DNA from: Pontibacter lucknowensis
GTDB lineage: Bacteria > Bacteroidota > Bacteroidia > Cytophagales > Hymenobacteraceae
Length of the DNA stretch: 64,000 bases
Direction of reading: 5' to 3'
Assembly: GCF_900156415.1 (NCBI RefSeq)
Contig: NZ_FTNM01000006.1
Location: 124,001 to 188,000, forward strand
Under the pieces are notes generated by a model. It saw only the letters and a program-made list of their open reading frames with translations, was not told the DNA's origin and did no database searches. The stretch's first letter is position 1. Each line of letters starts with the position of its first letter. Both the position numbers and the translations under genes were made by a program. Positions 30,088-57,694 of the stretch are shown here, piece after piece.

Positions 30088-30140
30088 CAAGCGTAAGTTT
30101 AAATGACACTTATTTGTATATCGAGTTTTATTAATTTCAC

Positions 30141-30148
30141 TATTTTTG
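30141..30148 (+). promoter_or_regulatory. Candidate -7 box for the main polysaccharide operon
   Basis: TATTTTTG matches TAnnTTTG. A TTTG at 30113-30116 lies 24 bases upstream, longer than ideal for a -33 element. The first gene of the plus-strand run starts at 30214, so the leader would be about 60 bases. Confidence 0.55.
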
Positions 30149-30213
30149 TGCCGCTGCATGGAGTCAAAGCCACTCTATGCTTTTTAAAAACAGACTTAAA
30201 ACTACTGCTGCTT

Positions 30214-31353: not shown

Positions 31354-31925
31354 TGCACTATTTCAGTCACGAAACAGCAGTAATCGATGAAGGCTGCACT
31401 ATTGGAGAGGGCACAAAGATCTGGCACTTTTCACACATTATGCCGAACTGCCAGATTGGCAAGAAATGTAACATCGGCCAGAATGTGGTGATCTCACCTG
31501 AAGTAGTGCTGGGTGATAATGTAAAGGTACAAAACAACGTCTCCATTTATACAGGTGTCACCTGTGATGATGATGTTTTTTTGGGTCCTTCCATGGTTTT
31601 TACCAATGTCATTAACCCACGCAGTGCCGTTAACCGTCGCGATCAGTACGCCAAGACCCATGTAGGCAAAGGAGCCACTATTGGGGCAAATGCGACGATC
31701 GTGTGCGGCCATAACATAGGAGAATACGCCTTTATAGGGGCGGGCGCTGTCGTTACGAAGCATGTTCCTGCCTTTGCACTGGTTGTAGGTAACCCATCCC
31801 GTCAGATCGGTTGGATGAGCACCTATGGTCACCGACTAGAGTTTGATGCGAGCGGTATCGCTATTTGCCCTGAAAGCGGTCAAAAATATAAATTAGAGAA
31901 TAACCAAGTTACACTTCTTAGCTAA
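31353..31925 (+). CDS. Left-handed beta-helix N-acetyltransferase (WbpD-like)
   Basis: A 190-residue hexapeptide-repeat acetyltransferase. Repeating turns with [78 protein letters not shown] give the left-handed parallel beta-helix, and [16 protein letters not shown] is the characteristic loop. The position between a WbpE-like aminotransferase and a WbpB-like oxidoreductase suggests it acetylates the 3-amino group of the uronic acid intermediate. Start and stop are coupled to both neighbours through TAATG overlaps, implying translational coupling. Confidence 0.9.
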
Positions 31926-32950: not shown

Positions 32951-33027
32951 ATAGTAACACGCTCTTAAATTATCTACATTTCCAGTGGGAGGTTAGATCG
33001 AATAGCAGGTTTTAATGTTTGCAAAGA

Positions 33028-34091: not shown

Positions 34092-35252
34092 ATGCCCGTT
34101 CATCACAAATTTCAAAAAGTAGTCGATTTCATTCGTACTCAATTTCCTGACAAGGATTTTATTCCTCTTCATGAGCCCTTGTTTATAGGCAATGAACGGA
34201 AGTATGTATTAGATGCTATTGACTCGACATTTGTTTCATCGGTGGGAGCATATGTAAACAAGTTTGAGGAGATGATGGCTTCGATCACGGGTAGCAAATT
34301 TGCTGTGGCAACTGTAAATGGTACATCGGCACTCCATATGGCTTTGCTTGTGGCTGGAGTTAAACAAGGGGAAGAAGTGCTCTCGCAGGCCTTTACCTTT
34401 ATAGCCACTGCCAATGCGATCAGCTACACAGGTGCCTCCCCAGTTTTTATTGACATAGACTCTGCTACGATGGGCATGTCCGCAGAAAAGCTTCAGAATT
34501 TTCTTGAGAAACATGTGACGCTTAAAGAAGGACAACCCTACAATAAAAGCAGCAAAAAAAGAATAGCAGCCTGTGTACCTATGCATAGTTTCGGACTGCC
34601 CTGTGAGATTGAACGCATAGCTACTCTTTGTAAGCAATGGAACATTCCTCTTATTGAAGATGCCGCTGAATCTCTGGGCAGCTATTATAAAGGCCGTCAT
34701 ACTGGTAGCTTCGGACAACTTGGAGTTTTCAGCTTTAATGGTAACAAGACCCTGACTAGTGGCGGTGGCGGTGCTATTGTCACAAATGATGAGAACCTGG
34801 CTAAGCTGGCAAAGCACCTGACTACTCAGGCTAAAATGCCACATGCCTGGGAGTTTTCGCATGACTATGTAGGCTACAACTATCGCATGCCTAATCTAAA
34901 TGCGGCATTGGCTTGCGCCCAGTTAGAGCAACTTAATAGTTTTGTAACTAACAAAAGAGAATTGGCTGGTAGATACAGTAATTTTTTCAAGGGAGAGGAA
35001 ATTCCATTTATAATGGAACTTCCTGAAGCAAAAGCTAACTATTGGCTCAATGCTATATTACTGTCTGACAGAGCCGAGAGAGATGAGTTTCTTGCTTATA
35101 CAAACGAACACAAGGTAATGACAAGGCCCACCTGGACATTAATGAACAAGCTGGTCATGTTTACCGACTGCCAGCACGATGGGCTTGAAGTGAGTCAATA
35201 TATTGAAGACCGCCTTGTAAATATTCCAAGTAGTGTGCGGAACAATGCCTGA
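34092..35252 (+). CDS. legC: LegC-type sugar 4-aminotransferase
   Basis: PLP-dependent aminotransferase, 386 residues, of the LegC branch. Motifs are FIPLHEPLFIGNERKYVLDAIDSTFVSSVG near the start, AVATVNGTSALHMALLVAGV, VLSQAFTFIATANAISYTGASPVFIDID, and FSFNGNKTLTSGGGGAI, with the PLP Lys at about residue 216. It would transaminate the 4-keto sugar nucleotide made by LegB. The 3' end overlaps the following NeuD-like gene by eight bases, and the pair is the standard legionaminic order. Confidence 0.9.
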   Translation: MPVHHKFQKVVDFIRTQFPDKDFIPLHEPLFIGNERKYVLDAIDSTFVSSVGAYVNKFEEMMASITGSKFAVATVNGTSALHMALLVAGVKQGEEVLSQAFTFIATANAISYTGASPVFIDIDSATMGMSAEKLQNFLEKHVTLKEGQPYNKSSKKRIAACVPMHSFGLPCEIERIATLCKQWNIPLIEDAAESLGSYYKGRHTGSFGQLGVFSFNGNKTLTSGGGGAIVTNDENLAKLAKHLTTQAKMPHAWEFSHDYVGYNYRMPNLNAALACAQLEQLNSFVTNKRELAGRYSNFFKGEEIPFIMELPEAKANYWLNAILLSDRAERDEFLAYTNEHKVMTRPTWTLMNKLVMFTDCQHDGLEVSQYIEDRLVNIPSSVRNNA

Positions 35253-35872: not shown

Positions 35873-36898
35873 ATGCTAAATAAGACCATCATTATAGCAG
35901 AAGCCGGTGTAAACCATAACGGTGACATGGGCTTGGCAAAAAAACTCATAGATGTGGCCGCTGAGGCTGGTGTGGACTATGTGAAGTTTCAGACCTTCAA
36001 AGCAGATAAGCTTGTTAGTAAAGAAGCAAAAAAGGCGGCTTACCAGGCGAATAACATGCAGGACAGTGACTCTTCGCAATACAATATGCTCAAGCAGCTA
36101 GAATTGAGCGAAGTTCAACATCACGAACTGTTGCACTATGCCAACTCAGCAGGCGTAAAGTTTCTTTCAACAGGTTTCGACGAAGAGAGTGTTGACTTCC
36201 TGTACCAACTTGGAATAGACTTTTTTAAAATTCCCTCAGGCGAAATAACCAATCTCCCTTACCTTCAGCACGTTGCTAGTAAGAAAAAGCCAGTTATACT
36301 TTCAACAGGTATGGCTACGATCAGCGAAATAGAAGCTGCGCTTGATGTGCTGCTACAGCAGCAGCCTAACCTTGACATCACTGTTCTGCAATGCAATACA
36401 GAGTACCCTACACCCATGGAGGATGTTAATTTAAAAGCTATGAACACCATTGGAATCACCTTTGGTGTTAAGACCGGCTACTCTGACCATACACTAGGTA
36501 TAGAGGTTCCAATCGCAGCTGTAGCACTTGGAGCAACAGTAATTGAAAAGCATTTTACTATTGACAGAAACCTGCCTGGCCCTGATCATAAAGCATCATT
36601 GGAACCGGCAGAACTAAAAGCGATGGTTGATTCAATTCGTAATATTGAAAAAGCTTTAAGTGGTAGCGGGAAAAAAAAGCCTAGTGTTTCAGAGGCCAAA
36701 AACAAGGAAATAGCACGAAAAAGCATTCATACAAAAACAGAGATTCAACCCGGTGAAGTATTTACACTTACCAATTTGATCATGAAAAGGCCTGGGGATG
36801 GCATATCTCCGATGGATCTACCCTTGGTGCTTGGAAGAAAATCCAATCAGCATTTAATTGAAGGAGAAAAGCTTAAATGGTCTGTAATCAATGATTAG
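35873..36898 (+). CDS. neuB: Nonulosonic acid synthase (NeuB/LegI)
   Basis: Condenses a 2-acetamido sugar (ManNAc or its 6-deoxy diacetamido analogue) with phosphoenolpyruvate to form a nine-carbon acid. The 341-residue product has the TIM-barrel synthase opening IIAEAGVNHNGDMGLAKKLIDVAAEAGVDYVKFQTFKADKLV, LSTGFDEESVDFLYQLGIDFFKIPSGEITN, VILSTGMATISEIEAAL, VLQCNTEYPTP and KTGYSDHTLGIEVPIAAVALGATVIEKHFT, then an SAF antifreeze-like domain at about 285-341. Operon position with LegB/C supports the legionaminic-type substrate (LegI) over neuraminic acid, but that is inference. Confidence 0.95.
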   Translation: MLNKTIIIAEAGVNHNGDMGLAKKLIDVAAEAGVDYVKFQTFKADKLVSKEAKKAAYQANNMQDSDSSQYNMLKQLELSEVQHHELLHYANSAGVKFLSTGFDEESVDFLYQLGIDFFKIPSGEITNLPYLQHVASKKKPVILSTGMATISEIEAALDVLLQQQPNLDITVLQCNTEYPTPMEDVNLKAMNTIGITFGVKTGYSDHTLGIEVPIAAVALGATVIEKHFTIDRNLPGPDHKASLEPAELKAMVDSIRNIEKALSGSGKKKPSVSEAKNKEIARKSIHTKTEIQPGEVFTLTNLIMKRPGDGISPMDLPLVLGRKSNQHLIEGEKLKWSVIND

Positions 36899-38021
36899 GG
36901 TCGGTGTATTAACAAGCTCACGGGCAGATTATGGTATTTACAAGCCCCTTTTACAGGCACTTGTAAATGACAGCACATTTGAGGTGTCTATCATTGCATT
37001 TGGCACTCACTTATCTCAATTTCATGGCTATACCTTGCAATGTATTGTTGATGATGGCTTTGATGTCAGGTATAAGGTAAACTCCATGCTTCTGCATGAC
37101 GACGCTAATTCCATCTCAACCGCGAGCGCCTTAACGTCATTAAAGTTTGCTGACTTCTGGAACGAGCATCATACAGAGTTTGATGTGGTTTTCTGCCTTG
37201 GCGACCGTTATGAAATGTTTGGTGCTGTCGCAGCAGGTATCCCCTTTCAAATAAATTTTGCTCACCTACATGGAGGTGAAACTACACTAGGAGCTATTGA
37301 TAATATCTACCGACATGCCATTACACTGGCTTCAACTTTGCACTTTGTTTCACAGGATGCATTCGCTAACAGAGTTGCAGATATAGTAGGTAATTCAGAC
37401 AATATATTTGTTACAGGCGCTCTTAGCCTTGATAATCTAAACTCTCTTCAATTATTAACCAAAGAGGAATTTAAAGCTAAGTGGAGCATTGATTTAAATA
37501 TTCCAACTGCTCTTGTCACAATTCATCCCGAAACTGTTGATTCAGAAAAAAATATTAACTACCTGAGAGAAGTGATAGAGGCTATTAACTTTATGGCTCT
37601 AGATCATCAGATAGTAATAACATTACCTAATGCAGATACTAACGGTAGTGTTTTTCGTCAAGGGTTCAATGCTCTTAAGTATACGCTTGGTAATAAACTA
37701 ATGCTTGTTGAAAACTTTGGGACTCAAAGCTATTTTTCCTGCATGAAACATTGTAAGTTTTTATTTGGAAATACATCGAGTGGGATAATAGAAGCAGCCT
37801 CTTTCAATAAATATGTCATTAATGTCGGAAACAGGCAAAAAGGAAGGCTTGCAGGAGAAAATGTTATACATGTACCTTTTGAAGCAAACAGTTTAAAAAC
37901 AGCTATTAGCAGGCTAATAGAGGCGGGAGATTTTAGTGGTGAAAACCCCTACTATAAAGGGGGAGCCGCTATGAATATTGTTAATATTTTAAAAACTCAT
38001 AACCGTAGTGATAAGCTCTAA
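36891..38021 (+). CDS. neuC: Hydrolysing UDP-sugar 2-epimerase (NeuC/LegG)
   Basis: Hydrolyses and epimerises a UDP- or GDP-linked HexNAc at C2 to release the free ManNAc-type sugar used by NeuB. The 376-residue enzyme begins VGVLTSSRADYGIYKPLL and has CLGDRYEMFGAVAAGIPFQINFAHLHGGETTLGAIDNIYRHAITLAS, the NeuC signature with HGGE. Its start lies within the last eight bases of neuB. LegG in the GDP pathway acts on GDP-linked substrate, which would match the PtmE-like gene next door. Confidence 0.93.
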   Translation: MIRVGVLTSSRADYGIYKPLLQALVNDSTFEVSIIAFGTHLSQFHGYTLQCIVDDGFDVRYKVNSMLLHDDANSISTASALTSLKFADFWNEHHTEFDVVFCLGDRYEMFGAVAAGIPFQINFAHLHGGETTLGAIDNIYRHAITLASTLHFVSQDAFANRVADIVGNSDNIFVTGALSLDNLNSLQLLTKEEFKAKWSIDLNIPTALVTIHPETVDSEKNINYLREVIEAINFMALDHQIVITLPNADTNGSVFRQGFNALKYTLGNKLMLVENFGTQSYFSCMKHCKFLFGNTSSGIIEAASFNKYVINVGNRQKGRLAGENVIHVPFEANSLKTAISRLIEAGDFSGENPYYKGGAAMNIVNILKTHNRSDKL

Positions 38022-42964: not shown

Positions 42965-44377
42965 ATGTCAATAACATTAGATCAACTTCTTTCTTTCGAA
43001 AGTAGGCTTCACCCTACAAACTTTAAAACTAAAGAAGGTCTATTGCTATGGCCTGTTTTACGATATCCTTTATTTAGATACATTAATGATTTCTCCAGTA
43101 ACTTTGAATCTCTAAAGACTCAAAGAAGTCTTGGTATAAAATCATTAAGACTTTTACTTAAGGCTGTTGTTTTACAAAATGGTTTTAAATTCCTATTCGT
43201 CCCAAATTTAAAGTTTCTGTATTTCGGTTCTGGAGTCACTAACGTTAGAAATGAAGAAGGAAAGTATTATAACCGGGTTAGTGACGATCTTTTGCTACTA
43301 GCTGAGAAGGAAAGTTATATCATTGAGCAGTATAATACTTATGATTTCAAGTATCCGCGAATTCATAAACAACATGCAGCCTCTGTTAGCTTTGAGATTA
43401 TTTACATTTTTTTAATAAAATCAGGTTTAATCCGTGTAAATGCACAAGAAGCAACTCAGATAAGTAGTATCATTCATAGTGCTAGAAAAACATTCAATCA
43501 ACTTAGTGACAAAGACGCTAATGAATTAGATAAACTACTGACAAAGCAGCTTTTAAAGGCGAAAGCTCAGTATTTTCTTTTCAGTAGGCTTTTTAATCTA
43601 AAGAAGCCTCAAATTATCTTTGTCGAGGATGCTGCTTACGGTACTAACTCTTATGTAGTTAAGGCAGCAAAGGATCGTGGAATTAAAGTCGGAGAAATAC
43701 AGCATGGCTTTGTTGGGAAAGGCCATATGGCTTATAATTATGCCGACAATGTAGCGCAGTCTACTGATTATCAACAGTATTTACCGGACTATTTTTTAAC
43801 TTATGGTAATTTCTGGTCAGAAGAAATTAATTTGCCTTCCAAAAAAGTAGCAATAGGCAAGCCGTCCATCCAAATTAATGCATCTAAGGAGTCCTCTAAA
43901 GTTAATCAAAGTCAAATATTATTTGTAAGCTCTGGCAATACTTACCAGGAAACGAAGCGGGTGCTCCATATTATCATGAATGGACTAAGAGATTCTGATA
44001 CTAAATTAATTTTTAGACCGCACCCACTCGAGATGAATGTGGAGGAGAAATATAGCGAGTTATTAAGTCTGGGTATGTATATTGATCAGAATACCAATGT
44101 GTATGATTCCATTCGTGAATCTCAGTGCATAATTGGTGATATTTCGACTGTTCTATATGAGGCTCTGGCTTTCGCTAATAAAACAGTTATCAGCTATCGC
44201 TCTGCACAAAATCCACAGGTTACTTTTCCTGATAAAGCAGTTACTATTGTTGATATAGAAGACCTTAACCAAATTCAGGTTTTACTTAAAGTTAAAAGGA
44301 ATGATGCTAGTAGCACAGAGGATGTTTGGTCAAAAGATTGGCAGAACAATTTTAAAAAATTCATTGAATCCCTTTAG
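42965..44377 (+). CDS. Probable GT-B glycosyltransferase or capsule-transfer protein
   Basis: A 470-residue protein without a recognised name. It is soluble-looking, with a GT-B-like C-terminal half: EDAAYGTNSYVVKAAKDRGIKVGEIQHGFVGKGH (an acceptor-type loop with a conserved Gln-His-Gly), KLIFRPHPLEMN and CIIGDISTVLYEALAFANKTVISY. This pattern is shared by KpsS/LpsN-type, CDP-glycerol-transferase-type and sialyltransferase-like proteins. Located between the nonulosonate cassette and the flippase, it may attach the nine-carbon acid to the repeat unit; that is inference. Confidence 0.65.
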   Translation: MSITLDQLLSFESRLHPTNFKTKEGLLLWPVLRYPLFRYINDFSSNFESLKTQRSLGIKSLRLLLKAVVLQNGFKFLFVPNLKFLYFGSGVTNVRNEEGKYYNRVSDDLLLLAEKESYIIEQYNTYDFKYPRIHKQHAASVSFEIIYIFLIKSGLIRVNAQEATQISSIIHSARKTFNQLSDKDANELDKLLTKQLLKAKAQYFLFSRLFNLKKPQIIFVEDAAYGTNSYVVKAAKDRGIKVGEIQHGFVGKGHMAYNYADNVAQSTDYQQYLPDYFLTYGNFWSEEINLPSKKVAIGKPSIQINASKESSKVNQSQILFVSSGNTYQETKRVLHIIMNGLRDSDTKLIFRPHPLEMNVEEKYSELLSLGMYIDQNTNVYDSIRESQCIIGDISTVLYEALAFANKTVISYRSAQNPQVTFPDKAVTIVDIEDLNQIQVLLKVKRNDASSTEDVWSKDWQNNFKKFIESL

Positions 44378-44394: not shown

Positions 44395-45849
44395 ATGGCT
44401 AGCTCATTTAGTAAAAATTCGTTCATTTATACATTTACTACTGTCTTTCAAAAAGGAGTAGCCTTCTTCCTGATTCCCGTCTATTCTATATTTATAGACC
44501 CTGAGGAATATGGTATCATTTCGCTTATCTTAGCTACTATTGCAATTCTTACAGTCCTTTTTACGCTTTCTTTTGATGCAGCTATAGTACGATTCTACTA
44601 TGACCATAAGCATGATAAAGAAGAGCTAAAAAAGAAGTTAAGCACGTTATTTATATCGCTTGGAGCTAATTCGCTTTTTGCATTTACATTTTTCATGATT
44701 GCGGGTCCTCCCCTATTCAATTGGGTACTACCCAATGTAGATTTTTACCCATATATATTCCTTGGCCTATTAATTTTATTATTTCAGCCTTTTTACTTAC
44801 TAGTTCTAGGCTTTTACCAAACTACTGAGAATGCTAAAGCATTTTCAATTTTAAGCATTGGTTATTTTTTAACCCATTTGGCATTAACAATTACATTCGT
44901 AGTTATTTTTGAATTTGGGGGAATAGGAATTCTGACTGCAACACTTATCTCCGCATTTATCTTCTCCTGCATAGGATTGTATTACTTAAGGGAATTCTTC
45001 GTTATTACTTTTGAGCGTCGCTTTGTAAAAACCGTACTAAAGTATACATTACCTTTGATCCCGCACTCGCTGGCAGGTCACTTAGCACTTACACTGGATC
45101 GCTTTTTGCTAAATGGACTCTTAAATCCACATGCCACGGGTTTATATTACTTAGGATACCAACTGAGTTACCCCGTGGATGTAATATCCTTGAGTTTTAA
45201 CAGGGCATTTGTACCCACATACTTCAACAATGTTGAACTTCCAGACGGAAAGATGCAAATCAGAAATAATGCATCTCTGTTTTTTGCCGTCTCAGCTTTC
45301 GGTGCTTTCTGCCTTTCTATTTGGGGACCAGAAGTATTCAAGTATTTAATAGATAAAGCTTACCTGGAGAGCCTAACTTTATTACCAATTATTAGTTTCT
45401 CATTTGTAGCAACAACAATTTATTATATTCATTCCTGCATATTTTTTTACAAAAAAGAAAAAGTATACCTGGTAGCTGTGTGTACAATCTCAGCCAACGT
45501 ACTGAATTTGGGTTTAAATCTAATACTTATACCCTATTATGGAATACATGGTGCAGCTTATGCCACTTTAGCTGCACAGCTGCTACTAGCTATCACAGCA
45601 ATCGTGATGGGGAAAAAATTTGAAAAGGTGAATTGGCCCACGTTCAAGTATTTCCTTCTGTTCACCTTATTGTTCTTTTTGAGCCTGATAACAAATCATG
45701 TAGTTGTCCTTGATCTCGTTTATTCAGTTCTCTCAAAGCTGTTGATCACTTTTCTGGCAATGATGTCAATAAGTGCAATTCTACTAAAAGGCCCTTTTCA
45801 TTTTCTCACTTATATCCAGAGCATTAGGCCAACTATTTTGAAAAAATAA
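44395..45849 (+). CDS. wzx: Wzx-type O-antigen/polysaccharide flippase
   Basis: A 484-residue integral membrane protein of the MATE/PST family with about twelve to fourteen hydrophobic helices. The N-terminus (SSFSKNSFIYTFTTVFQKGVAFFLIPVYS, then YGIISLILATIAILTVLF) and later stretches are typical of polysaccharide flippases, which move undecaprenyl-linked repeat units to the periplasmic face. It lies between a putative transferase and the T9SS cargo gene. Family assignment is secure; the exact substrate is inferred from the locus. Confidence 0.9.
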   Translation: MASSFSKNSFIYTFTTVFQKGVAFFLIPVYSIFIDPEEYGIISLILATIAILTVLFTLSFDAAIVRFYYDHKHDKEELKKKLSTLFISLGANSLFAFTFFMIAGPPLFNWVLPNVDFYPYIFLGLLILLFQPFYLLVLGFYQTTENAKAFSILSIGYFLTHLALTITFVVIFEFGGIGILTATLISAFIFSCIGLYYLREFFVITFERRFVKTVLKYTLPLIPHSLAGHLALTLDRFLLNGLLNPHATGLYYLGYQLSYPVDVISLSFNRAFVPTYFNNVELPDGKMQIRNNASLFFAVSAFGAFCLSIWGPEVFKYLIDKAYLESLTLLPIISFSFVATTIYYIHSCIFFYKKEKVYLVAVCTISANVLNLGLNLILIPYYGIHGAAYATLAAQLLLAITAIVMGKKFEKVNWPTFKYFLLFTLLFFLSLITNHVVVLDLVYSVLSKLLITFLAMMSISAILLKGPFHFLTYIQSIRPTILKK

Positions 45850-45925: not shown

Positions 45926-45933
45926 TATCTTTG
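45926..45933 (+). promoter_or_regulatory. Candidate -7 box for the T9SS cargo gene
   Basis: TATCTTTG matches TAnnTTTG about 70 bases upstream of the start at 46002, in the spacer after wzx. Suggests the cargo gene can be transcribed independently of the upstream operon. Confidence 0.5.
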
Positions 45934-46001: not shown

Positions 46002-48494
46002 ATGAAATACAGGCTTATTCTTACACTTCTACTTTTATTTTTTTCTTCCACTATCGTTTCGAACACTTTCGCTAATGACCCAAAAAAGCTATGGAGTAGT
46101 TGGGAAAAAGTAGCTGAACTACCCTTTTCTAAGCGCGATGGTGTTGGAGTAGTGCATTTCAAAGACGAGATATGGATGCTTGGCGGATGGACCTATGGCC
46201 CCCTTACTAATGACATCTATAAGTCATCAGACGGTATCAATTGGGTTAAAGTTAGCAACGGCACTTGGCAAGGACGTCATGGTGCTGGCATGGTTGCCTT
46301 TAATGATAAGCTATGGGTATTTAGCGGAGATGGGTATGATGACATCTGGTCCTCTGAAGATGGTATAGATTGGATTATGGAAGTAGATCATGCTCCTTGG
46401 GGAAGACGTTATACGCCCTACATTACCGTCTTTGATGATAAAATTTGGCTCATGGGAGGCATAAGCTTTTGGGATAGCTTTGGCACTTATAATCCTTATA
46501 CACCCGTAGCCTTCAACGATGTTTGGTCATCTCAAGATGGCATTAATTGGCAATTGGAAACCCCACAGGCACCTTGGGGACCAAGAGGTATAATACATGG
46601 CTCTTTGGTACATAACGATGAAATGTGGATACTAGGCGGTGGCAACAAGCAATGGAACACACCTGTGGACATGTACAACGATGTATGGAAAACCAAAAAT
46701 GGAGTTGATTGGGAGCTAGTTACTGAAAATGCTTTGTGGAGCCCAAGAATTCATTTTACAACTATCTCATTCGATAATAAGATCTGGGTCATTGACGGGA
46801 CAACCAGTACCGAATCGTTAACGAATAACGTTTGGTATTCTGAAGATGGCATTAAGTGGAATATACTTGAAAGTTACACTAAGTTCCCCAGAACTCATGC
46901 CAGCACAGCTTTTACACATGACAATGCTCTCTTTATATCTGCCGGCTTTGACATAGATGCTATCTATCGTTACAAACCACCTCAGCAACAACTTGTAAAA
47001 AGCGAAAATGCCTTTACTTTTTTACTTAACAGTGACCCCAATGAAGTTAATGTTAACCTAACGTCTGGCCTTAAGCCTCACATTCAGGTACAAGACACAT
47101 CTATTGCTATCATACTAGAGAACAACCTGATTAAAACTAAAGCTACTGGGAATACAAAGCTTCTGATTTCTCATCCAGGCGATTATGGCTTTTACCCGCT
47201 TGATACTACCTATCTTGATCTAATCGTAAAGCAAGAACAATACATCATAGCAGAAGCACTACCAGAAGCAGTTTTACAGGATACTGTTAAAATCAACATC
47301 TTGGGTATATCGGGTTTGCCAGTCAGTATTTTACCAAATGAGCATATAGAAATTATTGATGAGAATACTATTATTCCCTTAGTCCCTGGTGATATTACTT
47401 TGGAACTGTTGCAAGATGGTGATGACAATTATGCCCCTTGGAGTGGTACAATTAGTTTAGTAATTGTTGAACAAGATGCTGTTCAAACACTTCGTCAGAA
47501 ACAGTCACTTGTAAAAGAAATTTCATCAATCTCAGCCATTTATGGAACCGAGTATGTTGATTTAGAGCTCGAGTCAACTTCTGGCTTGCCCCTTTCTTTT
47601 CAAATTGCCGATACGGCAGTGGCTACCTTAACAGCGGATAACCGGGTTCAACTCAAAGGTGTCGGAAATACCAGAATCTTTGTATCAAATGCAGGAGATT
47701 CTGAATATTACCCGCTCTTTACATCTGCAATCGAACTAACTGTGCATAAGAGAGAGCAACATGTCATTGAGCATAAATCACCAATCAAAAGTGTATATGG
47801 CAATGAGCCTATTAAACTAGCTTTCACCACAGATAGTGGTATTCCAGTAAAATATATAGTTTCAGACACTAGTGTTGCTAATGTTTACGAAGATAACCTG
47901 CTGCTTGTGAAGAATGCGGGCACAACGGAGCTATTTGTTGTAAACGACGGAGATAAAAACCATTTGCCACTAGAAAATGTCAAAATCGATATCCTGGTTG
48001 ACAGAAAAGACCAACAGATCGGAGTTAATTTTCCCCTGGAGCTAGTTGAGAGAGATACCATCGCTATCAGTACATATTCAGAAGCAGGATTGCCGGTAAG
48101 AATACTTCCAGCAGATGGGCTCAACCTTATAGATGAATCTAGCTTCATACCAGTAAAAAGCGGATTGATCAGACTCGTTTTAGAACAGGAAGGCAATAAG
48201 AATTATAAAGCGTGGAGAAAAGAATACAACTTATTTGTAATTAGCTTAACAGGGTATACGGTCTACCCGAACCCTACTAAGGATCTCATCAAAATAACTA
48301 CAAGCAGCTATTTAGGCTCCATTGAGAAAATATTAATTCACGGTTTGGACGGTAGGTCCTATAAAAGTCTGACATTGGACGAAACACTAAATGGGTATGT
48401 AGTGGACTTAAGTAACTTTAAGTCTGGCATCTACTTCTTATCACTAAAATTTAACAACGGCGAATCTAAAACAACGAAAATCATCAAACAATAG
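46002..48494 (+). CDS. T9SS cargo protein with kelch-like repeats and tandem Ig-like modules
   Basis: An 830-residue secreted protein. Residues 1-23 are a signal peptide (MKYRLILTLLLLFFSSTIVS). About 40-320 is a run of five or six kelch/galactose-oxidase-like repeats, each with a D-I/V-W-S/K-S-x-DGINW pattern preceded by an IWMLGG-type strand (for example DEIWMLGGWTYG, FDDKIWLMGGISF, NDEMWILGGGNK). About 330-755 are five tandem modules of 80-90 residues with NxSGLPVxxxxxD-type motifs and DGDxxYxPL ends, of the BIG2/MBG kind. The C-terminal domain (about 757-830, VYPNPTKDLIKITTS to STLKFNNGES-like end) is a type A T9SS sorting signal. It sits inside a polysaccharide locus, an unusual place for cargo. 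Function unknown. Confidence 0.85.
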   Translation: MKYRLILTLLLLFFSSTIVSNTFANDPKKLWSSWEKVAELPFSKRDGVGVVHFKDEIWMLGGWTYGPLTNDIYKSSDGINWVKVSNGTWQGRHGAGMVAFNDKLWVFSGDGYDDIWSSEDGIDWIMEVDHAPWGRRYTPYITVFDDKIWLMGGISFWDSFGTYNPYTPVAFNDVWSSQDGINWQLETPQAPWGPRGIIHGSLVHNDEMWILGGGNKQWNTPVDMYNDVWKTKNGVDWELVTENALWSPRIHFTTISFDNKIWVIDGTTSTESLTNNVWYSEDGIKWNILESYTKFPRTHASTAFTHDNALFISAGFDIDAIYRYKPPQQQLVKSENAFTFLLNSDPNEVNVNLTSGLKPHIQVQDTSIAIILENNLIKTKATGNTKLLISHPGDYGFYPLDTTYLDLIVKQEQYIIAEALPEAVLQDTVKINILGISGLPVSILPNEHIEIIDENTIIPLVPGDITLELLQDGDDNYAPWSGTISLVIVEQDAVQTLRQKQSLVKEISSISAIYGTEYVDLELESTSGLPLSFQIADTAVATLTADNRVQLKGVGNTRIFVSNAGDSEYYPLFTSAIELTVHKREQHVIEHKSPIKSVYGNEPIKLAFTTDSGIPVKYIVSDTSVANVYEDNLLLVKNAGTTELFVVNDGDKNHLPLENVKIDILVDRKDQQIGVNFPLELVERDTIAISTYSEAGLPVRILPADGLNLIDESSFIPVKSGLIRLVLEQEGNKNYKAWRKEYNLFVISLTGYTVYPNPTKDLIKITTSSYLGSIEKILIHGLDGRSYKSLTLDETLNGYVVDLSNFKSGIYFLSLKFNNGESKTTKIIKQ

Positions 48495-48607
48495 CTTCAT
48501 TTTAACAGTCCCGACATTGAATAATATTTCTGTTATAGCAAAGTGCTTTCCATACAGCACAATTTTATATTTATTCAATCTTTAAGGCATAAAACCTCAA
48601 ACCATTA

Positions 48608-48658: not shown

Positions 48659-49297
48659 ATGAACATTTGCATTATTGACTACGGCTTGGGCAATTCCGGC
48701 TCAATCCAAAACATGCTCAAACGAATAGGATTCAGAAGCGTCATCTCTAATGAACCTGAGGTTATCGAGACAGCCGACCTACTCTTTTTACCTGGTGTAG
48801 GCTCATTTGATGATGGGATGACAAACCTGGAGCAGCTGAATCTTATACCTATACTTGAGAAAAAAGTACTGGAGCAAAAGACTCCAATTATTGGCATATG
48901 CCTGGGCATGCAGTTGTTACTTGCTGGAAGTGAAGAAGGAACAAAAGCTGGCCTTGGCTGGATAAAAGGCACATGCAAGAAATTCAATTTCAAGAAAACT
49001 CCAGAGCGTTTGCGAGTACCGCATATGGGCTGGAACCTGACTACCCCTGCACAAACCGCCCAAAACTTTTTCAGTACTGATTTACCTGAACTGAGGTATT
49101 ACTTTGTGCATAGCTATTATGCCGTTTTGGAAGATGAAGCCGATGAGCTTTGCAGCACATCTTACGGATTTAAGTTCAGTTCAGGTATACAGCGGGACAA
49201 TATTATTGGCCTGCAGTTTCACCCAGAGAAAAGCCATAAATTTGGGATGTCCCTTTTAAAGAATCTTGTAAATAATCTGATCAGTGTTAAAAGCTAG
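48659..49297 (+). CDS. hisH: HisH-like glutamine amidotransferase (acetamidino-sugar type)
   Basis: A 212-residue class I glutamine amidotransferase that resembles the HisH subunit of imidazole glycerol phosphate synthase: MNICIIDYGLGNSGSIQNML at the start, nucleophile in GICLGMQLLL, and HPEKS at the C-terminus for the catalytic His-Glu. It is followed by hisF-like and WbpG-family genes, an arrangement known from the Pseudomonas aeruginosa O5 O-antigen, where HisH2 and HisF2 supply ammonia to WbpG for acetamidino formation. It is therefore more likely part of that set than of histidine biosynthesis, since no other his genes are near. Confidence 0.88.
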   Translation: MNICIIDYGLGNSGSIQNMLKRIGFRSVISNEPEVIETADLLFLPGVGSFDDGMTNLEQLNLIPILEKKVLEQKTPIIGICLGMQLLLAGSEEGTKAGLGWIKGTCKKFNFKKTPERLRVPHMGWNLTTPAQTAQNFFSTDLPELRYYFVHSYYAVLEDEADELCSTSYGFKFSSGIQRDNIIGLQFHPEKSHKFGMSLLKNLVNNLISVKS

Positions 49298-50048
49298 AGT
49301 AATTCCCTGCCTGCTGCTTAAAGGTGGAGGAGGCTTAGTTAAAACAAAAAAATTCAGCTCGCCAAACTACATCGGTGACCCGATAAATGCGGTCAAGATC
49401 TACAATGAGAAAGAGGTCGACGAGCTTATGTTTCTTGACATCACGGCTAGCAAGGAGCGTCGTGGTCCTAATTTTGAGTATCTTAAAGATATTGCTTCAG
49501 AGTGTTTTATCCCACTCTGCTACGGCGGTGGGATTACTTCCGTAGATGAGATCAGAAAACTATTACGGATAGGTATAGAGAAAGTCTCTATCAATTCCGC
49601 TAATTTTACAACCCCGAATCTGATTGCAGATGCGGCTAAATTATTCGGTAGCTCAACTGTGGTGGGCTCTATTGACGTGAAACAGAACTTCTTTCGCAAA
49701 TTGAGAGTTTTCAACTCGTCTAAAAGGGATACCACCAAACTCGATCCGGTGGATTTTGCTAAGTCTCTTGAAAACCAGGGAGCTGGAGAAATACTGATCA
49801 ATTCAGTCGACAGGGATGGCATGCTTTCAGGCTATGACTTCGAACTCATCAAGAAAATAACGGATGCCGTCAATGTTCCTGTTATTGCCTGCGGAGGTGC
49901 CTCCGGTTTAGATGATATCCAGCGTGTAGTAAAATATGCTGGGGCCTCAGCCGCTGCGGCTGGCAGTATTTTTGTTTACCAGGGTGGTAACAAAGGTGTT
50001 CTGATCAATTATCCGAATTACCAGCAGTTGGAGAAAATATTAAACTGA
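49284..50048 (+). CDS. hisF: HisF-like (beta/alpha)8 subunit (acetamidino-sugar type)
   Basis: A 254-residue TIM-barrel protein of the HisF family, with MLKARVIPCLLLKGGGGLVKT and VDELMFLDITASKERRGPNF, YGGGITSVDEIRKLLRIGIEKVSINSANF and NSVDRDGMLSGYDFELI. In HisF it forms the ammonia channel and cyclase; in acetamidino clusters (HisF2) it works with HisH2 to provide ammonia. The start is GTG at 49284, overlapping hisH by 14 bases. Key catalytic Asp residues expected of a true cyclase cannot be confirmed by eye. Confidence 0.88.
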   Translation: MLKARVIPCLLLKGGGGLVKTKKFSSPNYIGDPINAVKIYNEKEVDELMFLDITASKERRGPNFEYLKDIASECFIPLCYGGGITSVDEIRKLLRIGIEKVSINSANFTTPNLIADAAKLFGSSTVVGSIDVKQNFFRKLRVFNSSKRDTTKLDPVDFAKSLENQGAGEILINSVDRDGMLSGYDFELIKKITDAVNVPVIACGGASGLDDIQRVVKYAGASAAAAGSIFVYQGGNKGVLINYPNYQQLEKILN

Positions 50049-50050
50049 TA

Positions 50051-51160
50051 ATGAATACAAACTTAAAGACCTGTGTAAGCTGTTTGATGGATACTTCAGA
50101 CCCGAAGATCACGTTTAACGATGCAGGTGAGTGTAATTACTGTGTAGAAGCATCAGCTGAACTTCCCAAATACAGGTACACTGAAGAGCAGGTTCAGGCC
50201 AACATCAAAAAGCTGGTCAGCCATGTCAAATCCAAAAAGAGAGGTAAATACGATTGCCTTATAGGTATAAGTGGAGGAGTTGATAGCTCTTACGTAACAC
50301 ATTTGGCAGCTAAATGGGGACTTAATCCACTGGTAGTTCATTTCGACAATGGCTGGAACTCTGAACTCGCTGTTTCAAATATCAATAACATACTGAACAA
50401 GACTGGCTTTGACTTCCAGACCTACGTCATCGACTGGGAGGAATTCAAGGATCTGCAGCGGGCATTTCTCAAGGCATCTGTAGTCGATATTGAGATGCTG
50501 ACTGACCATGCCATCAAAGCTTCGATGTTTAAGCTTGCCCGTGCAAACAACATTAAGTGTGTGTTGTCAGGAACAAATTATGCCACAGAGCATGGTTTGC
50601 CTACCTCGTGGGTTTGGCACAAGGGAGATTTACAGAATATAAAGGCTATCCAAAAGTTGTATGGCAATAGAACCCTGAAGTCTTTCCCTACCATAGGGCC
50701 TTTCAAATCAATCTTTTACAAGATGGTTTATAAATTGGATTATCTGGAGCCTCTTAATCTAATCAACTTCAGGAAACTCGATGCTATGAAAGTGCTGGAG
50801 AAGGAATATGATTGGCGCTATTATGGAGGCAAGCATTATGAATCGCTTTTCACTAAATTCTATCAGGCGCACATTTTACCAGAAAAATTTAAGATTGATA
50901 AGCGCAAGTCCCATATCTCTGCGCTAGTGCGAAACAATGAAATAAGTCTCTCTGAAGCCAGGGAACAACTTGCACAACCACTTTATCAGTCCGTGAGCGA
51001 ATTTCAGGAAGAGAAAGAGTTTGTCCTGAAAAAATTAGGATTCACCTTTACTGAGTTTGACGAGATACTTCAGGACAGTCCGAAACCCCATGATAGCTAC
51101 CCTACTGATATTCATCTTTATCAACGCCTGAATAAAGTTCGCACCAAATTAAATCTATAG
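50051..51160 (+). CDS. N-acetyl sugar amidotransferase (WbpG-like)
   Basis: A 369-residue PP-loop ATP-pyrophosphatase of the WbpG/PseA family. The N-terminus has a zinc-type pair CVSCLM (Cys9, Cys12) and CNYCV (about 27-30), then the PP-loop GISGGVDSSYV at about 74-84, and GTNYATEHGLP with a WVWHKGDLQN segment. Such enzymes convert an acetamido group on a sugar to acetamidino, using ammonia from HisH/HisF. Here it closes the hisH-hisF-amidotransferase set. The target may be the 2,3-diacetamido-uronate or the nonulosonate; the sequence does not decide. Confidence 0.9.
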   Translation: MNTNLKTCVSCLMDTSDPKITFNDAGECNYCVEASAELPKYRYTEEQVQANIKKLVSHVKSKKRGKYDCLIGISGGVDSSYVTHLAAKWGLNPLVVHFDNGWNSELAVSNINNILNKTGFDFQTYVIDWEEFKDLQRAFLKASVVDIEMLTDHAIKASMFKLARANNIKCVLSGTNYATEHGLPTSWVWHKGDLQNIKAIQKLYGNRTLKSFPTIGPFKSIFYKMVYKLDYLEPLNLINFRKLDAMKVLEKEYDWRYYGGKHYESLFTKFYQAHILPEKFKIDKRKSHISALVRNNEISLSEAREQLAQPLYQSVSEFQEEKEFVLKKLGFTFTEFDEILQDSPKPHDSYPTDIHLYQRLNKVRTKLNL

Positions 51161-52397: not shown

Positions 52398-53811
52398 AGA
52401 TTCACCGTTAAGTTCTGGTTGGCGAATTTCTCAGCTACTTTTAAGTGTAGTTTTGAGCTTCGTCACTGCTCAGTGTATTTATCTGATATGTAGCTTAAGT
52501 ATAATAACCGGCTATACTATTCTAACACTAGTCTTAGCATTTCTTGCCTTCTCAAGGTACAAGATGTTTCTGGTTAATTTTTATTGCTGGAGTGTACTTT
52601 ACCAAAATGCCTTGATAGCCTATTCATCTGGCCTCATCGCAGACAGTAATATATTCAGTATACTGCATGGCACTAACTTTTATATCACTACACTGCTATT
52701 TATCCTACTTAGCCTCCGCAGCTTAAATTTTGTGCTAAAATCAACCCTATTTACAACTTCATTCTTTGTAATGGTTCTGCTTAGTATTTTCTGCGGTGCT
52801 GGAGTTTATCTATATGGATTTAAAAATAGCTTTGTTTACTTCCGTCTGTTTTCGATGGTATTTATGATGTTTTGGATTGGTGCTTTTTTTTCATCATTCA
52901 CTACAGAAAGGAATTTCAGACTGATTCTTAAAACACTACTCTCGCTGACTCTTATAAGCATAGTTGGTCAGTTTATCTTTCCGGAGCTTTTTCTCACCTT
53001 AATGAATGATGTTGATTACTACTCTCTTAAAGGGGATGCATCCTCAATGGAGGAAGTAATTCAACTACTACACAGTAATACATACTTCAATATTTCATCA
53101 TTCGGAGAGGCAGTAAGAGCTCCTGGTTTTATCAAAAGCTTTATCTCGAGCGCTTATTTTGTTATTTGCCTGTCTATCCTATTATACTGGAATAAAAACA
53201 TATACATGGTCTTGCTTTCCTTCCTGATCATGTCTGTGTGTGTTGCGTCAAAAGGGGCATTTATAGGTTTCTTCTTTTTTGTTGTTTTATACTATTTAAA
53301 CAAAAAATTTAAATTTAACATACAAGCTGCTTTATTCATTTTATTGTTCTTATGGTTGCCTCTCGTGGCTATAGGTTATAGCACCAACAATGAACATTTA
53401 ATTGGGTTTGTTTCAGGTCTATCGTATTTAGATACTGTTGGCAACGGGCTCGGATTTTCGGGGAACCTGTCTGATATAAGACTTGCCTCCTATTCCGGTG
53501 TTCCCCTACCTGACCAGGGTTATTGGACCAGATTCTATAATGGCAGCGAAAGTGCGCTAGGAGTACTGTTTAGCAGCTTAGGTATTTTTTCTTTGATTTA
53601 CTTATACTTGCTTTTCAGGCACTTATTTAAAATTTATCCAGTACTAAAAGATAATAATTTAGACTACATAGCATTGCTTTCAATTGTTATGGTTTTTCAA
53701 GGCATATTTCAGGAAGAGGCATTCTCTCCATATGCATTTGGCATGGTGCTGTTTGTAGCTGGTTACTACTTTTTCAACTCCCTTGATGAAGCTCCTGAAT
53801 CTGCGAACTAA
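52378..53811 (+). CDS. Wzy-like polysaccharide polymerase
   Basis: A 477-residue multi-spanning membrane protein with eleven or so hydrophobic helices and no soluble catalytic domain, as expected for Wzy polymerases that join repeat units in the periplasm. Several periplasmic loops carry charged and aromatic residues (for example NGSESALGVLFS near 390). No strict motif defines Wzy, so the call rests on topology, locus context and length. It lies between a glycosyltransferase and a WaaL-type gene; the overlap with the next gene is 26 bases. Confidence 0.7.
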   Translation: MEVLEAKDSPLSSGWRISQLLLSVVLSFVTAQCIYLICSLSIITGYTILTLVLAFLAFSRYKMFLVNFYCWSVLYQNALIAYSSGLIADSNIFSILHGTNFYITTLLFILLSLRSLNFVLKSTLFTTSFFVMVLLSIFCGAGVYLYGFKNSFVYFRLFSMVFMMFWIGAFFSSFTTERNFRLILKTLLSLTLISIVGQFIFPELFLTLMNDVDYYSLKGDASSMEEVIQLLHSNTYFNISSFGEAVRAPGFIKSFISSAYFVICLSILLYWNKNIYMVLLSFLIMSVCVASKGAFIGFFFFVVLYYLNKKFKFNIQAALFILLFLWLPLVAIGYSTNNEHLIGFVSGLSYLDTVGNGLGFSGNLSDIRLASYSGVPLPDQGYWTRFYNGSESALGVLFSSLGIFSLIYLYLLFRHLFKIYPVLKDNNLDYIALLSIVMVFQGIFQEEAFSPYAFGMVLFVAGYYFFNSLDEAPESAN

Positions 53812-54994
53812 AGCGAGGTTAGTGCTACCGTATGCATGTGGGGCATTTGCTTTCTTTATCTTTCTTATCCCCACTTTTAGCAATATACTGCTGGCTGTAT
53901 TGGTAATGCTATGGTTGCTAGATAGCGATTTCAGGCAAAAAGCAAGTTTAATCGCCTCACAGAAAATACTGATCGCATTTAGCGCTTTTTTTATCCTCTA
54001 CTTGATCGGAAGCACCTATACAGATGATCTTGAAGATGCGAAAGGGGCTGTGATTATGAGGTTGCCATTGGTACTGCTGCCAATAGTGATCGGAACTTTT
54101 ATATCCCCGCTTACTAAGCCTGAGCTCCGTGCAATATTAACTACTTATATAGCTTCAGCTATAATTTGTTCTCTTTTTTTAGTATACATTTCAATATACC
54201 AAGCTCAGGCTACTGATACAGATTTTTTCAGGTATGTTCTTACTGCGCCTGATTATGAAATTGTGGATTTGTCACGCTTAAAAAATCACAGGCCCTACCT
54301 TGGTCTATTCGTTGCATTCGCGATATTTTTGCTCACTTTCGAAGACACAACCTATTTTAAAAAATCTACCACCAGGTTACTAATTGCTTTGTTTCTGCTG
54401 CTTTCCCTATTTTTCTTATTCAAAGCGAAAATGTCAGTGGTATCAGTCATTATCTTGATGGTTTTACGATTTTACCCTAAACCGATCTACGCTAAAGCAA
54501 TTACCAGTATTTTGTTAGTCATTGTAGCTGTAATATTACATGACCCCATAATTGATTTTGTATACAATAAGATAATTCTCTCAGATGGCGGAAGCCGTTT
54601 TAGAAACTGGGCTACCTCAATCGATGCTATTAAAAATTCACCAATAGTCGGTTATGGATCTGGAGATGAACTAGTCGCTTTGCAAATGTTTCGTGATCCG
54701 GAAGCCTGGGAGTATATTCACACTTATAATTCACACAATCAATATCTTTCTATTCTCTTGCAATTAGGAATAATAGGGATGAGTGTGTTTGCAGTTGTCT
54801 TATTCTTTCTGCTTTACCAGAGTCGAAAATACTATAGGCCTGGAATTTATTTTGTCCTCTTGTTCATACTAGCTGGTTTTTCAGAAGTTCTTCTGTCACG
54901 AAATGCCGGCGTTCTCTTCTTTGGTTTTTTCAGCGGATTAATAATATCACATATAAGGTATTTATCTCTAAGCCATACTATTAAGGATACATAA
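53786..54994 (+). CDS. O-antigen ligase-family membrane protein
   Basis: A 402-residue polytopic protein of the WaaL/O-antigen-ligase family. It has about ten hydrophobic helices, a large periplasmic loop with SDGGSRFRNWATSIDAIKNSPIVGYGSGDE, and the conserved HNQYLSILLQLGIIGMSVF segment with the active-site-type His. The end, AGFSEVLLSRNAGVLFFGFF, is the usual family C-terminus. ATG at 53786 is chosen over a TTG three bases earlier. It may ligate the chain to lipid A-core or be a second polymerase; both share this family. Confidence 0.8.
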   Translation: MKLLNLRTKARLVLPYACGAFAFFIFLIPTFSNILLAVLVMLWLLDSDFRQKASLIASQKILIAFSAFFILYLIGSTYTDDLEDAKGAVIMRLPLVLLPIVIGTFISPLTKPELRAILTTYIASAIICSLFLVYISIYQAQATDTDFFRYVLTAPDYEIVDLSRLKNHRPYLGLFVAFAIFLLTFEDTTYFKKSTTRLLIALFLLLSLFFLFKAKMSVVSVIILMVLRFYPKPIYAKAITSILLVIVAVILHDPIIDFVYNKIILSDGGSRFRNWATSIDAIKNSPIVGYGSGDELVALQMFRDPEAWEYIHTYNSHNQYLSILLQLGIIGMSVFAVVLFFLLYQSRKYYRPGIYFVLLFILAGFSEVLLSRNAGVLFFGFFSGLIISHIRYLSLSHTIKDT

Positions 54995-55530: not shown

Positions 55531-56277
55531 ATGCTTGACATTATTAAAAATAAAAGACCAGTACCTCCACGCCCTGAAGCTAATGGACATCAATCTCTGA
55601 CGACATTTATCAACCCAGTGTCTTATCTTATCGCCAGAGATCAGAGGCATCTGTATCAGCAGTTTGACTACCTGCTTGCTGACGGGTGGCTGTTTGTGGC
55701 TGCCTTGCGGTTTGCGGGGATACCTGCTAAAAGATTTAGCTTCGATATGACTTCAATGGCCTTCAGTGTGTTCAACGATGCTATATCTAATAATAAATCC
55801 ATATACTTTATCGGTGCCAAGCAAGCGGAGATAGAGCGTTTCATCAAAATGATTCAGCAACATTTTCCCAAATTAAATATACTGGGCTACCGGGATGGCT
55901 ACTTCAGTGACAACGCAGAACGAGATGAAACGCTCGAATGCATCAAAATTTTAGCGCCAGATATCGTAGTTGCAGGACTTGGTGTGCCGCTTCAGGAAAA
56001 ATTTTTGGTTGATCTTTACCATAAAGGCTGGAGTGGCCAAGGCTATACCTGTGGGGGATTTATTCATCAGACTATTGACAGGTTAAACTATTATCCGGAT
56101 TGGATCAATAAATTCAATTTGCGCATGCCTTACCGTTTTATCAAAGAACCCCATTTTAGAAAGCGGTTGCCTGACTACTTCAAGTTTCTGTATGCCTTTA
56201 CAAAAGATTGCTTCAGTTATAAGGTACAGCCTCATCAGATAAAAAGAAAAATAAAGCAACCTACCATTGTCAAATGA
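55531..56277 (+). CDS. WecG/TagA/CpsF-family glycosyltransferase
   Basis: A 248-residue GT26-type enzyme. Blocks are DYLLADGWLFVAALRFAG (with the conserved catalytic-type Asp), YFIGAKQAEIERFIKMIQQHFPKLNILGYRDGYF, APDIVVAGLGVPLQEKFLVDL and YTCGGFIHQTIDRLNYYPDWI, followed by RMPYRFIKEPHFRKRLPDY, the membrane-associated C-terminal motif. These enzymes add ManNAc(A)-type residues to a polyprenyl-linked sugar, normally the second residue of the unit. It precedes the initiating transferase gene by 34 bases. Confidence 0.9.
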   Translation: MLDIIKNKRPVPPRPEANGHQSLTTFINPVSYLIARDQRHLYQQFDYLLADGWLFVAALRFAGIPAKRFSFDMTSMAFSVFNDAISNNKSIYFIGAKQAEIERFIKMIQQHFPKLNILGYRDGYFSDNAERDETLECIKILAPDIVVAGLGVPLQEKFLVDLYHKGWSGQGYTCGGFIHQTIDRLNYYPDWINKFNLRMPYRFIKEPHFRKRLPDYFKFLYAFTKDCFSYKVQPHQIKRKIKQPTIVK

Positions 56278-56311: not shown

Positions 56312-57694
56312 ATGCCCGGCCTGTATTCCCGATATATCAAACCTATTCATGCTTTAGGCGATGCGGTAGCAATTGCTATTTCAGCTGCAAGTGCTTATTG
56401 GTTGACTGAGGGAACATTGGCTGGCTTTTTTACCAGGCCTTATGTAAATTTTCTGGTCTATGGTCTGTCTGCCTGGTTTATTTGTACCAGTTTGCTGGGC
56501 ACCTATAGGTTTTACAGGGTTACCCGGATCCTGGAAATACTAGCAAATGTCCTGAAAGTGACGCTACTCTACTTAATTTTGATAGAGGCGTTTCTCAACA
56601 TGCTGGACGCAGAGGTTTACTCCCGCAGCTTTTTACTCTACCATTATCTATTACTGGCTGGTCTCGTTATCCTGTGGCGCATCATTGTTATCACATCGCT
56701 TCGGGTGTATAGAAGAAAAGGCTATAATTACCGCAGAGTCATTATCATCGGCTATTCAGCTCCTGGTAAAGAACTGCGTCGCTTCTTTAAAAACCGGCCT
56801 GAGCATGGTTATCGTTTCCTCGGCTTCTTTGATGACAAACATACACAGGAGCCTGGCGTAATCGGTAAAATAGATGAAATCGAGGAGTTCGTCCTTCAAA
56901 ACGATGTCGATGAGATCTACTGTAGTCCCTTTGAGCTGCAGAAGCATCAAATCGTACGATTGCTCAATTTTGTAGATAATAACCTGATCCGCCTGAAGTT
57001 CCTGCCTGAGCCGGGCGGGCTACCCTATCAGAAGCTACAGGTAGATTTCTATGACATGCTGCCCGTGCTTATTTTCCGCTCGATTCCGCTTGACGATTCG
57101 ATCAATAAGTTTCTGAAGCGTACTTTCGACATCGTGTTCTCATCACTTGTCATTTTGTTCATCCTTTCCTGGCTGCTTCCTATTCTGGCTATCCTTATCA
57201 GGCTCGACTCCAAAGGTCCTATCTTCTTTAAGCAGGAACGCTCCGGCTTGGACAACCAGAAATTTAAGTGCTGGAAGCTCCGTACCATGTATGTGAACAA
57301 TGAGGCCAACTCCAAACAGGCCCAGCGCGGCGATTCCCGTATCACGCCAATCGGGGCCATCCTTCGCAAAACCAGTCTGGATGAATTGCCGCAGTTCTTT
57401 AACGTGCTGATGGGACAGATGTCGATTGTAGGTCCAAGACCACACATGCTGAGCCATACCATGTACTACTCCACACTGGTAGATAAATTTATGGTGCGGC
57501 ATTTTATCAAGCCAGGTATAACGGGCTTGTCGCAGGTGCGGGGTTTCCGCGGTGATACAAGTGAGATACACCAGATGCGCGGCCGCGTGAAACTCGATAT
57601 CTTCTACCTGGAAAACTGGTCTTTCTTCCTCGATCTCAAAATCGTCTTCTATACCGTGTACAACATGCTGCGGGGTGAGGATAACGCATTTTAA
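56312..57694 (+). CDS. Polyprenyl-phosphate sugar-1-phosphate transferase (WcaJ/WbaP type)
   Basis: The initiating enzyme of the locus: it transfers hexose-1-phosphate from a nucleotide sugar to undecaprenyl phosphate. The 460-residue product has four or five N-terminal TM helices (about 12-30, 45-62, 78-96, 105-130), a CoA-binding-like domain (RRVIIIGYSAPGKELRRFF), then a TM at about 280-300 and the catalytic domain KRTFDIVFSSLVILF to GPIFFKQERSGLDNQKFKCWKLRTMY, RKTSLDELPQFFNVLMGQMSIVGPRPHM, and KPGITGLSQVRG. Composition rises toward that of the core genes here, so this marks the right edge of the locus. Confidence 0.92.
   Translation: MPGLYSRYIKPIHALGDAVAIAISAASAYWLTEGTLAGFFTRPYVNFLVYGLSAWFICTSLLGTYRFYRVTRILEILANVLKVTLLYLILIEAFLNMLDAEVYSRSFLLYHYLLLAGLVILWRIIVITSLRVYRRKGYNYRRVIIIGYSAPGKELRRFFKNRPEHGYRFLGFFDDKHTQEPGVIGKIDEIEEFVLQNDVDEIYCSPFELQKHQIVRLLNFVDNNLIRLKFLPEPGGLPYQKLQVDFYDMLPVLIFRSIPLDDSINKFLKRTFDIVFSSLVILFILSWLLPILAILIRLDSKGPIFFKQERSGLDNQKFKCWKLRTMYVNNEANSKQAQRGDSRITPIGAILRKTSLDELPQFFNVLMGQMSIVGPRPHMLSHTMYYSTLVDKFMVRHFIKPGITGLSQVRGFRGDTSEIHQMRGRVKLDIFYLENWSFFLDLKIVFYTVYNMLRGEDNAF

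Follow-up and report, generated by a model that had tools for sequence, protein, structure and literature searches.

The window, that is, the whole 64,000-nucleotide stretch of Pontibacter lucknowensis DNA that was analysed, contains a glycan locus spanning approximately 30-58 kb. The genes of the locus named below are all encoded on the + strand. The first three are a DegT-type aminotransferase, proposed to be WbpE-like (30103-31353; 63-72% identical in genomes G412, G968, G1014 and Pontibacter sp. E15-1, described below), a hexapeptide acyltransferase, proposed to be WbpD-like (31353-31925; 77-82% identical in the same four genomes and in G925), and a Gfo/Idh/MocA oxidoreductase, proposed to be WbpB-like (31925-32950; 67% identical in E15-1 and only 27-29% in the other kelch loci). 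These are followed by the LegB 4,6-dehydratase (33019-34026; TIGR04180, 508 bits, cut-off 475), a LegC-family aminotransferase (34092-35252; TIGR04181, 541 bits, cut-off 420), a NeuB-type nonulosonate synthase (35873-36898; TIGR03569, 482 bits, cut-off 399.65) and a NeuC-type 2-epimerase (36891-38021; TIGR03568, 355 bits, cut-off 235.9), and a gene of NeuD type is also present. A LIC12162/surface-carbohydrate-type transferase (42965-44377), assigned by a weak family match of 31 bits against a cut-off of 225, precedes a Polysacc_synt flippase (44395-45849). The gene of interest, 46002-48494, lies between this flippase and the acetamidino trio, which consists of a HisH-like glutaminase (48659-49297), the AglZ/HisF2 acetamidino modification protein (49284-50048; NF038364, 358.6 bits, cut-off 310) and the WbuX N-acetyl sugar amidotransferase (50051-51160; TIGR03573, 249.8 bits, cut-off 203.2). 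The flanks are thus those reported by the first-pass annotation. Further downstream are an O-antigen ligase/polymerase-like gene (Wzy_C, 53783-54994), a WecG/TagA glycosyltransferase (55531-56277) and an initiating sugar transferase (Bac_transf, 56312-57694).

The locus (30000-58000) is an AT-rich island with a GC content of 35-45%, compared with 45-56% in its flanks. The GC content of the gene at 46002-48494, about 40%, matches the locus and not the flanks. The gaps on its two sides, of 152 and 164 bp, are too short to hold a separate mobile element. A recent insertion of this gene by itself, the event that the first-pass annotation had named as an objection to its own interpretation, was therefore rejected for the window, the gaps being shorter than 170 bp and the GC content locus-like.

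The gap before the gene contains a match to TAnnTTTG (45926-45933, + strand), and one TANNTTTG site is found in each of the two flanking gaps. This octamer, which we take to be of the Bacteroidota promoter -7 type, is commoner than expected in the window (68 matches versus 47), so that a single match is weak evidence. Between 44300 and 51300, promoter-like sites number 16, below the shuffled mean of 20.3, and terminator-like sites number 10, above the shuffled mean of 4.5 (sd 2.1). A weak terminator-like stem of 5 pairs is located at 48543-48560, between the gene and HisH. Two other proteins with T9SS tails are encoded a few kilobases past the end of the glycan locus, one with a CHU_C tail (60818-62806, + strand) and one with a type A tail (62832-63998, - strand). 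The host genome (G000; 4.47 Mb in 19 contigs) holds another type A tail on contig C12.

The product of 46002-48494 is a protein of 830 residues. Its N-terminus is hydrophobic and resembles, by eye, a signal peptide of about 25 residues (46002-46076). The kelch head occupies residues 27-328 (46080-46985), has six repeats when read by eye, and is assigned from Pfam, the kelch tree, the structure model and profile matches; Kelch_1 (PF01344) scores 33.5 bits against a Pfam cut-off of 20.1. The C-terminus is a type A T9SS sorting domain at residues 754-828 (48261-48485), over the cut-off both for Por_Secre_tail (PF18962; 37.5 bits versus 27, Pfam) and, at residues 754-830, for TIGR04183 (38 bits versus 23, NCBIfam). 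The profiles bear out the kelch repeats and type A T9SS tail described in the first-pass annotation. The recurring DGINW-type motif described there is also real: [DN]GxxW occurs five times, each time in the kelch head, whereas shuffling the protein 1000 times gave 0.24 on average and at most 3.

The stalk between head and tail, residues 333-748, consists of five modules of about 80 residues, the number previously described, which belong to two types in the order A-B-A-A-B (46998-47234, 47235-47471, 47493-47756, 47757-48008 and 48009-48245). A curated domain cut-off is reached by only one of the five, the fourth, with a PF21461 match at residues 617-657. Because a single module passes a cut-off and the full-length structure model (pLDDT 48.7) is too poor for use, 'Ig-like' is a fair guess for these modules rather than an established fold, and an immunoglobulin fold is plausible.

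A model of the kelch head by itself is of moderate quality (pLDDT 65, pTM 0.69). With this model, Foldseek ranks kelch domains first, at low TM-scores of 0.23-0.31, and the head has profile matches to solved kelch chains. Its structural neighbours according to VIA-align include sialidases, which would suit an enzymatic head that, once at the surface, alters or trims the glycan or its nonulosonic sugar in the way of kelch sugar epimerases or oxidases; their Z is about 8, however, in a list without a clear leader. The YjhT/NanM-type profile TIGR03547 matches the window protein weakly, with 18.5 bits, far below the NanM/YjhT family cut-off of 256.35. PF24996 (NANM) matches the homologue in genome G925 at 26.2 bits, below its cut-off of 45, and is absent from the Pfam matches of the window protein at E values up to 0.01. 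The homologue in G1014 has a match over the cut-off to Kelch_4, the galactose oxidase central domain. Short of a residue-by-residue comparison, no catalytic set was identified in the head, and an enzymatic role is quite unlikely.

Kelch genes were sought in other genomes blind to genomic context, and the context was then read for 48 kelch ORFs, including that of the window; weak order-level matches in G183, G271, G309, G344, G423 and G427 are outside this set, and seven of the 48 contexts are 12.4 kb or shorter. A kelch ORF was counted as lying in a glycan locus when at least five glycan-type genes, detected with home-made profiles from 22 seeds, were present within 10 kb. Five of the 48 pass this threshold: the window, G968, G412, G925 and G1014. 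All five have WbuX and belong to Wbp-like/acetamidino loci, and in all five the kelch gene is co-oriented with the locus. The ORF gaps beside it range from -11 to 230 bp, the exception being one side of the G968 gene, which has transposase-like ORFs. G968, G412, G1014 and G925 are all of one family, which is different from that of the window.

The G968 locus has the same order as the window, flippase - kelch - HisH - HisF - WbuX, apart from the transposase-like ORFs (IS3-type by eye; L200, 6149-8580) between flippase and kelch gene. The identities to the window are 65% for the flippase, 69% for HisH, 81% for HisF, 72% for WbuX, 79% for the WbpD-like protein and 87% for LegB. The stretch from the Wbp-like genes to NeuC comes next in the order of the window, and synteny extends over most of the surrounding locus. 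There are also differences between the two loci: identity is 28% for the LIC12162-type transferases and 27% for the WbpB-like proteins, and at the position of three other genes in the window G968 carries a second acetamidino trio. The two trios of G968 (L200, 958-3469 and 11821-14582) are different from each other, one being located beside the kelch gene and the other beside the nonulosonate genes. The shared order and identities point to a transfer of the locus between families that took the kelch gene with it, and the differences to a change that would have come later.

In the remaining three loci the kelch gene is found among Wbp-like, acetamidino or nonulosonate genes: between HisF and WbuX in G412, between the WbpD-like and WbpB-like genes in G1014, and just after these two genes in G925. 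Two further contexts contain HisH. In G755, a kelch-T9SS ORF at the end of a 3.3-kb contig ends 54 bp from a HisH gene that faces the opposite way. This HisH is 48-55% identical to four HisH proteins of acetamidino trios, compared with 35-39% to two of the histidine-operon type; to the second type of acetamidino HisH it is 36-37% identical, which is no closer than to histidine-operon HisH. The kelch ORF of L219 has HisH and HisF within 10 kb and is not counted, since its HisH groups with the histidine-operon type.

The number of kelch ORFs expected near WbuX is between 0.06, from the prevalence of WbuX, and a generous upper bound of 0.64, both with assumed per-gene rates; at these assumed rates the Poisson probability of finding at least 4 of the 47 other kelch ORFs near WbuX is 3e-7 to 0.004. 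A WbpD-like protein of at least 70% identity is present in all four other full kelch loci (77-79%), compared with 12 of 60 control acetamidino stretches (Fisher p 0.003), and one more control stretch has a short WbpD-like piece at 75%. Within the family f19 the figures are 4/4 kelch loci and 3/12 controls (p 0.02). The cases are not all independent, because the four other full cases share one family and the loci of G968 and the window are homologous.

The linkage is not general. Outside glycan loci by the same threshold are 43 of the 48 kelch ORFs, near some of which glycan genes were possibly missed, as the glycosyltransferase profiles found few members. The same is true of 15 of the 19 kelch ORFs with a T9SS tail, although two of these 15 (G755 and E15-1) are near some glycan genes. 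The kelch homologue of Pontibacter sp. E15-1 is not in a Wbp-like/acetamidino locus and is unlinked from the genome's own one: the WbuX genes and the Wbp-like and Leg genes are on another contig. On one side it is a single DnaK gene away from a different polysaccharide locus, of ABC type, and on the other it adjoins a glycan-degradation cluster. WbuX occurs somewhere in 14 of the 22 kelch-bearing genomes (13 over the cut-off), so that possession of both genes does not imply linkage.

The converse was examined with 60 of the 109 listed WbuX places, taken with flanks of 9.4 kb to either side. The window and G412 were omitted, as were six second copies within stretches already fetched, 14 places that scored below the cut-off and 27 that scored above it (20 of genus g4, three of g6, and G359, G447, G506 and G426). 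Certain genomes contributed two stretches, one pair of stretches overlaps, and five of the 60 are shorter than 12 kb at contig ends. None of these 60 other acetamidino stretches has a kelch gene. One of them, L077, has an ORF of 942 residues (17019-19844) that lies about 6.5 kb from WbuX and matches a T9SS tail but not kelch. With no kelch gene and this one T9SS-tail match among 60, the idea that acetamidino loci carry T9SS cargo as a general rule was discarded. The locus association thus holds in several genomes and is supported but not general. Of the claim that homologues co-occur with the same locus, the part concerning G968, G412, G1014 and G925 stands, and the part that would extend it to E15-1 or to acetamidino loci at large does not.

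The homologue is rare among near relatives. Strong matches to the head are found in 2 of 50 genomes of the genus (own included), with one further weak match in G047, and in the family the head is matched in 3 of 204 genomes (own included), one of the three weakly. At wider ranks, with the host's own genome included, kelch matches occur in 19/390 genomes of the order (E ≤1e-3) and 19/395 of the class (E ≤1e-15). They occur in 19/215 genomes of the family of G412 (E ≤1e-15), 5/87 of the family of G807 (E ≤1e-40) and 1/8 of the order of G755; among the relatives of G968 there are 6/146, none of them new. A phage or plasmid origin was considered and rejected: scans of phages and viral contigs gave no match to the kelch protein, and the plasmid matches to the head are 14 records (H1-H14), all of Leptospira and only 33-36% identical. 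These Leptospira records have two to four kelch places each.

Sporadic presence, together with the total absence of kelch genes from the control stretches, would also be expected of an adhesin or phage-exposed protein that hitchhikes in a hypervariable surface locus and shares its diversifying selection without being physically tied to the glycan. The AT-rich island, the variable make-up of the stalk (A-B, A-A-B or A-B-A-A-B) and the relationship of the head to many kelch proteins outside glycan loci agree with such a passenger. What it does not readily explain is the repeated presence of one domain family in the Wbp-like/acetamidino subtype of locus; the passenger reading is judged unlikely.

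A tree built from 31 of the kelch domains places the window in a clade (G925,(G968,(window,E15-1))) with support 98/95. G755, G412 and G1014 are outside this clade; G412 forms a long branch, the placement of which is unsure. The glycan label, which for this count includes E15-1 and G755, needs three changes on the tree, and none of 500 shuffles was as low, a result that kinship among the rows can produce by itself. Fifteen residues, D265 among them, are invariant within the clade and rare elsewhere. By eye, W157, Y163, K216, P67 and S155 are in loops after GG motifs, and P139, Y140 and H251 are early in repeats. Kelch ligands often bind in such loops or in the early parts of repeats. The repeated arginines of the head, on the other hand, are common to most kelch relatives and not specific to the clade. 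The charge of the head was rejected as a sign of acidic-sugar binding, its pI of 4.9 being within the range of most relatives.

The members of the clade differ in how the head is carried. The stalk is A-B-A-A-B in the window, A-B in E15-1 and A-A-B in G968, and thus varies in length. The G925 protein (L201, 1947-3539) has no T9SS tail. Its propeller is at the C-terminal end, and it has a lipoprotein-like start (by eye), cadherin-like domains and a DUF6242 match. If the lipoprotein reading is right, heads of one kind reach the surface by two different routes from loci of one kind, and it is the head, not the anchor, that is kept by the locus. The shared feature thus seems to be a displayed head, surface display being predicted.

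In Porphyromonas gingivalis, T9SS cargo is attached to LPS by way of a sugar from the Wbp/Vim pathway (PMC7468200, PMC13086638). WbpD-like genes are present in the window locus and in the four other full kelch loci, and the gene might accordingly be kept because the T9SS tail of its product is attached to a Wbp-type linking sugar that the locus supplies, the match being to the anchor and not to the head. Against this, such a locus in G925 holds a head that lacks a T9SS tail, and at least two type A tails of the host are encoded outside the locus (on C12 and at 62832-63998 of the window). The Wbp-like genes would also fit an O-antigen sugar. A match to the anchor is therefore improbable, and the G925 homologue speaks against adaptation to a T9SS glycan anchor in particular. 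Taken as a whole, the interpretation in the first-pass annotation is partly supported, the link to the glycan being a prediction.

Some distant relatives have comparable proteins in sugar loci of this type, which suggests that protein and sugar may work together. The reading preferred here, with a probability of about 0.45, is that the gene encodes a cognate glycan-binding or glycan-organising surface protein within a mobile glycan locus. The gene would belong to a surface-glycan locus that is laterally mobile. Its product, which carries features of T9SS export, would display a kelch propeller of six repeats on a stalk whose length varies. The head would recognise the acidic, acetamidino-modified glycan that the locus makes, and may serve as a cognate lectin or organiser at the surface, packing, cross-linking or retaining this glycan. 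The architecture, the place of the gene in the locus, its recurrence in several loci elsewhere and the relationships within the clade are observed; display on the surface, the chemistry of the glycan, its binding and the organising role are predicted. A broader and rather doubtful extension is that some Bacteroidota glycan loci are complete coat cassettes, in which an acidic acetamidino-modified glycan and its own dedicated propeller, T9SS- or lipid-anchored and binding specifically the glycan of its locus, move together between families.

To our knowledge, T9SS cargo is thought to be anchored to the glycan of the cell but to be encoded apart from it. Judged by titles and the opening lines of abstracts, searches of open-licence papers listed nothing on point for kelch proteins with T9SS, O-antigen or Bacteroidetes surface polysaccharide, or for sorting-domain T9SS cargo in O-antigen gene clusters. 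A T9SS cargo gene that recurs inside glycan loci, and that appears to have moved with one such locus between families, provides a few natural pairs of protein and glycan, in which one can ask directly whether a secreted surface protein matches the surface glycan of its own cell.

Among the closest known proteins are the LamG-kelch-T9SS proteins of other Bacteroidia (G807 by Pfam; G865, G616 and others by eye). These have the same kelch family and a T9SS tail, but differ in an added LamG-like domain and in that no glycan locus was detected nearby. RemA of Flavobacterium johnsoniae is a T9SS cargo, and its lectin domain differs from the kelch head. It is described as a surface motility adhesin whose overexpression aggregates cells via a galactose-containing exopolysaccharide (PMC8481357). 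The likeness, as for RsaA and PepA below, is in the proposed role, that of a surface protein acting with a polysaccharide. RsaA, the S-layer protein of Caulobacter crescentus, is unrelated to the window kelch protein. It is a surface protein bound to O-antigen (PMC6978808). No lattice is claimed for the window protein. PepA, a PEP-CTERM protein of Aquincola tertiaricarbonis, keeps exopolysaccharide cell-bound when overexpressed, and pepA is described as a locus apart from the exopolysaccharide cluster (PMC9850573). Like the window protein, judged by its tail, PepA is a sorted protein; the sorting system is different and the proteins are unrelated. Finally, type A T9SS cargo, for example that of P. 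gingivalis, is like the window protein in the type A sorting domain and, as read by eye, in the signal-like N-terminus, and the difference is that the window gene resides inside a glycan locus.
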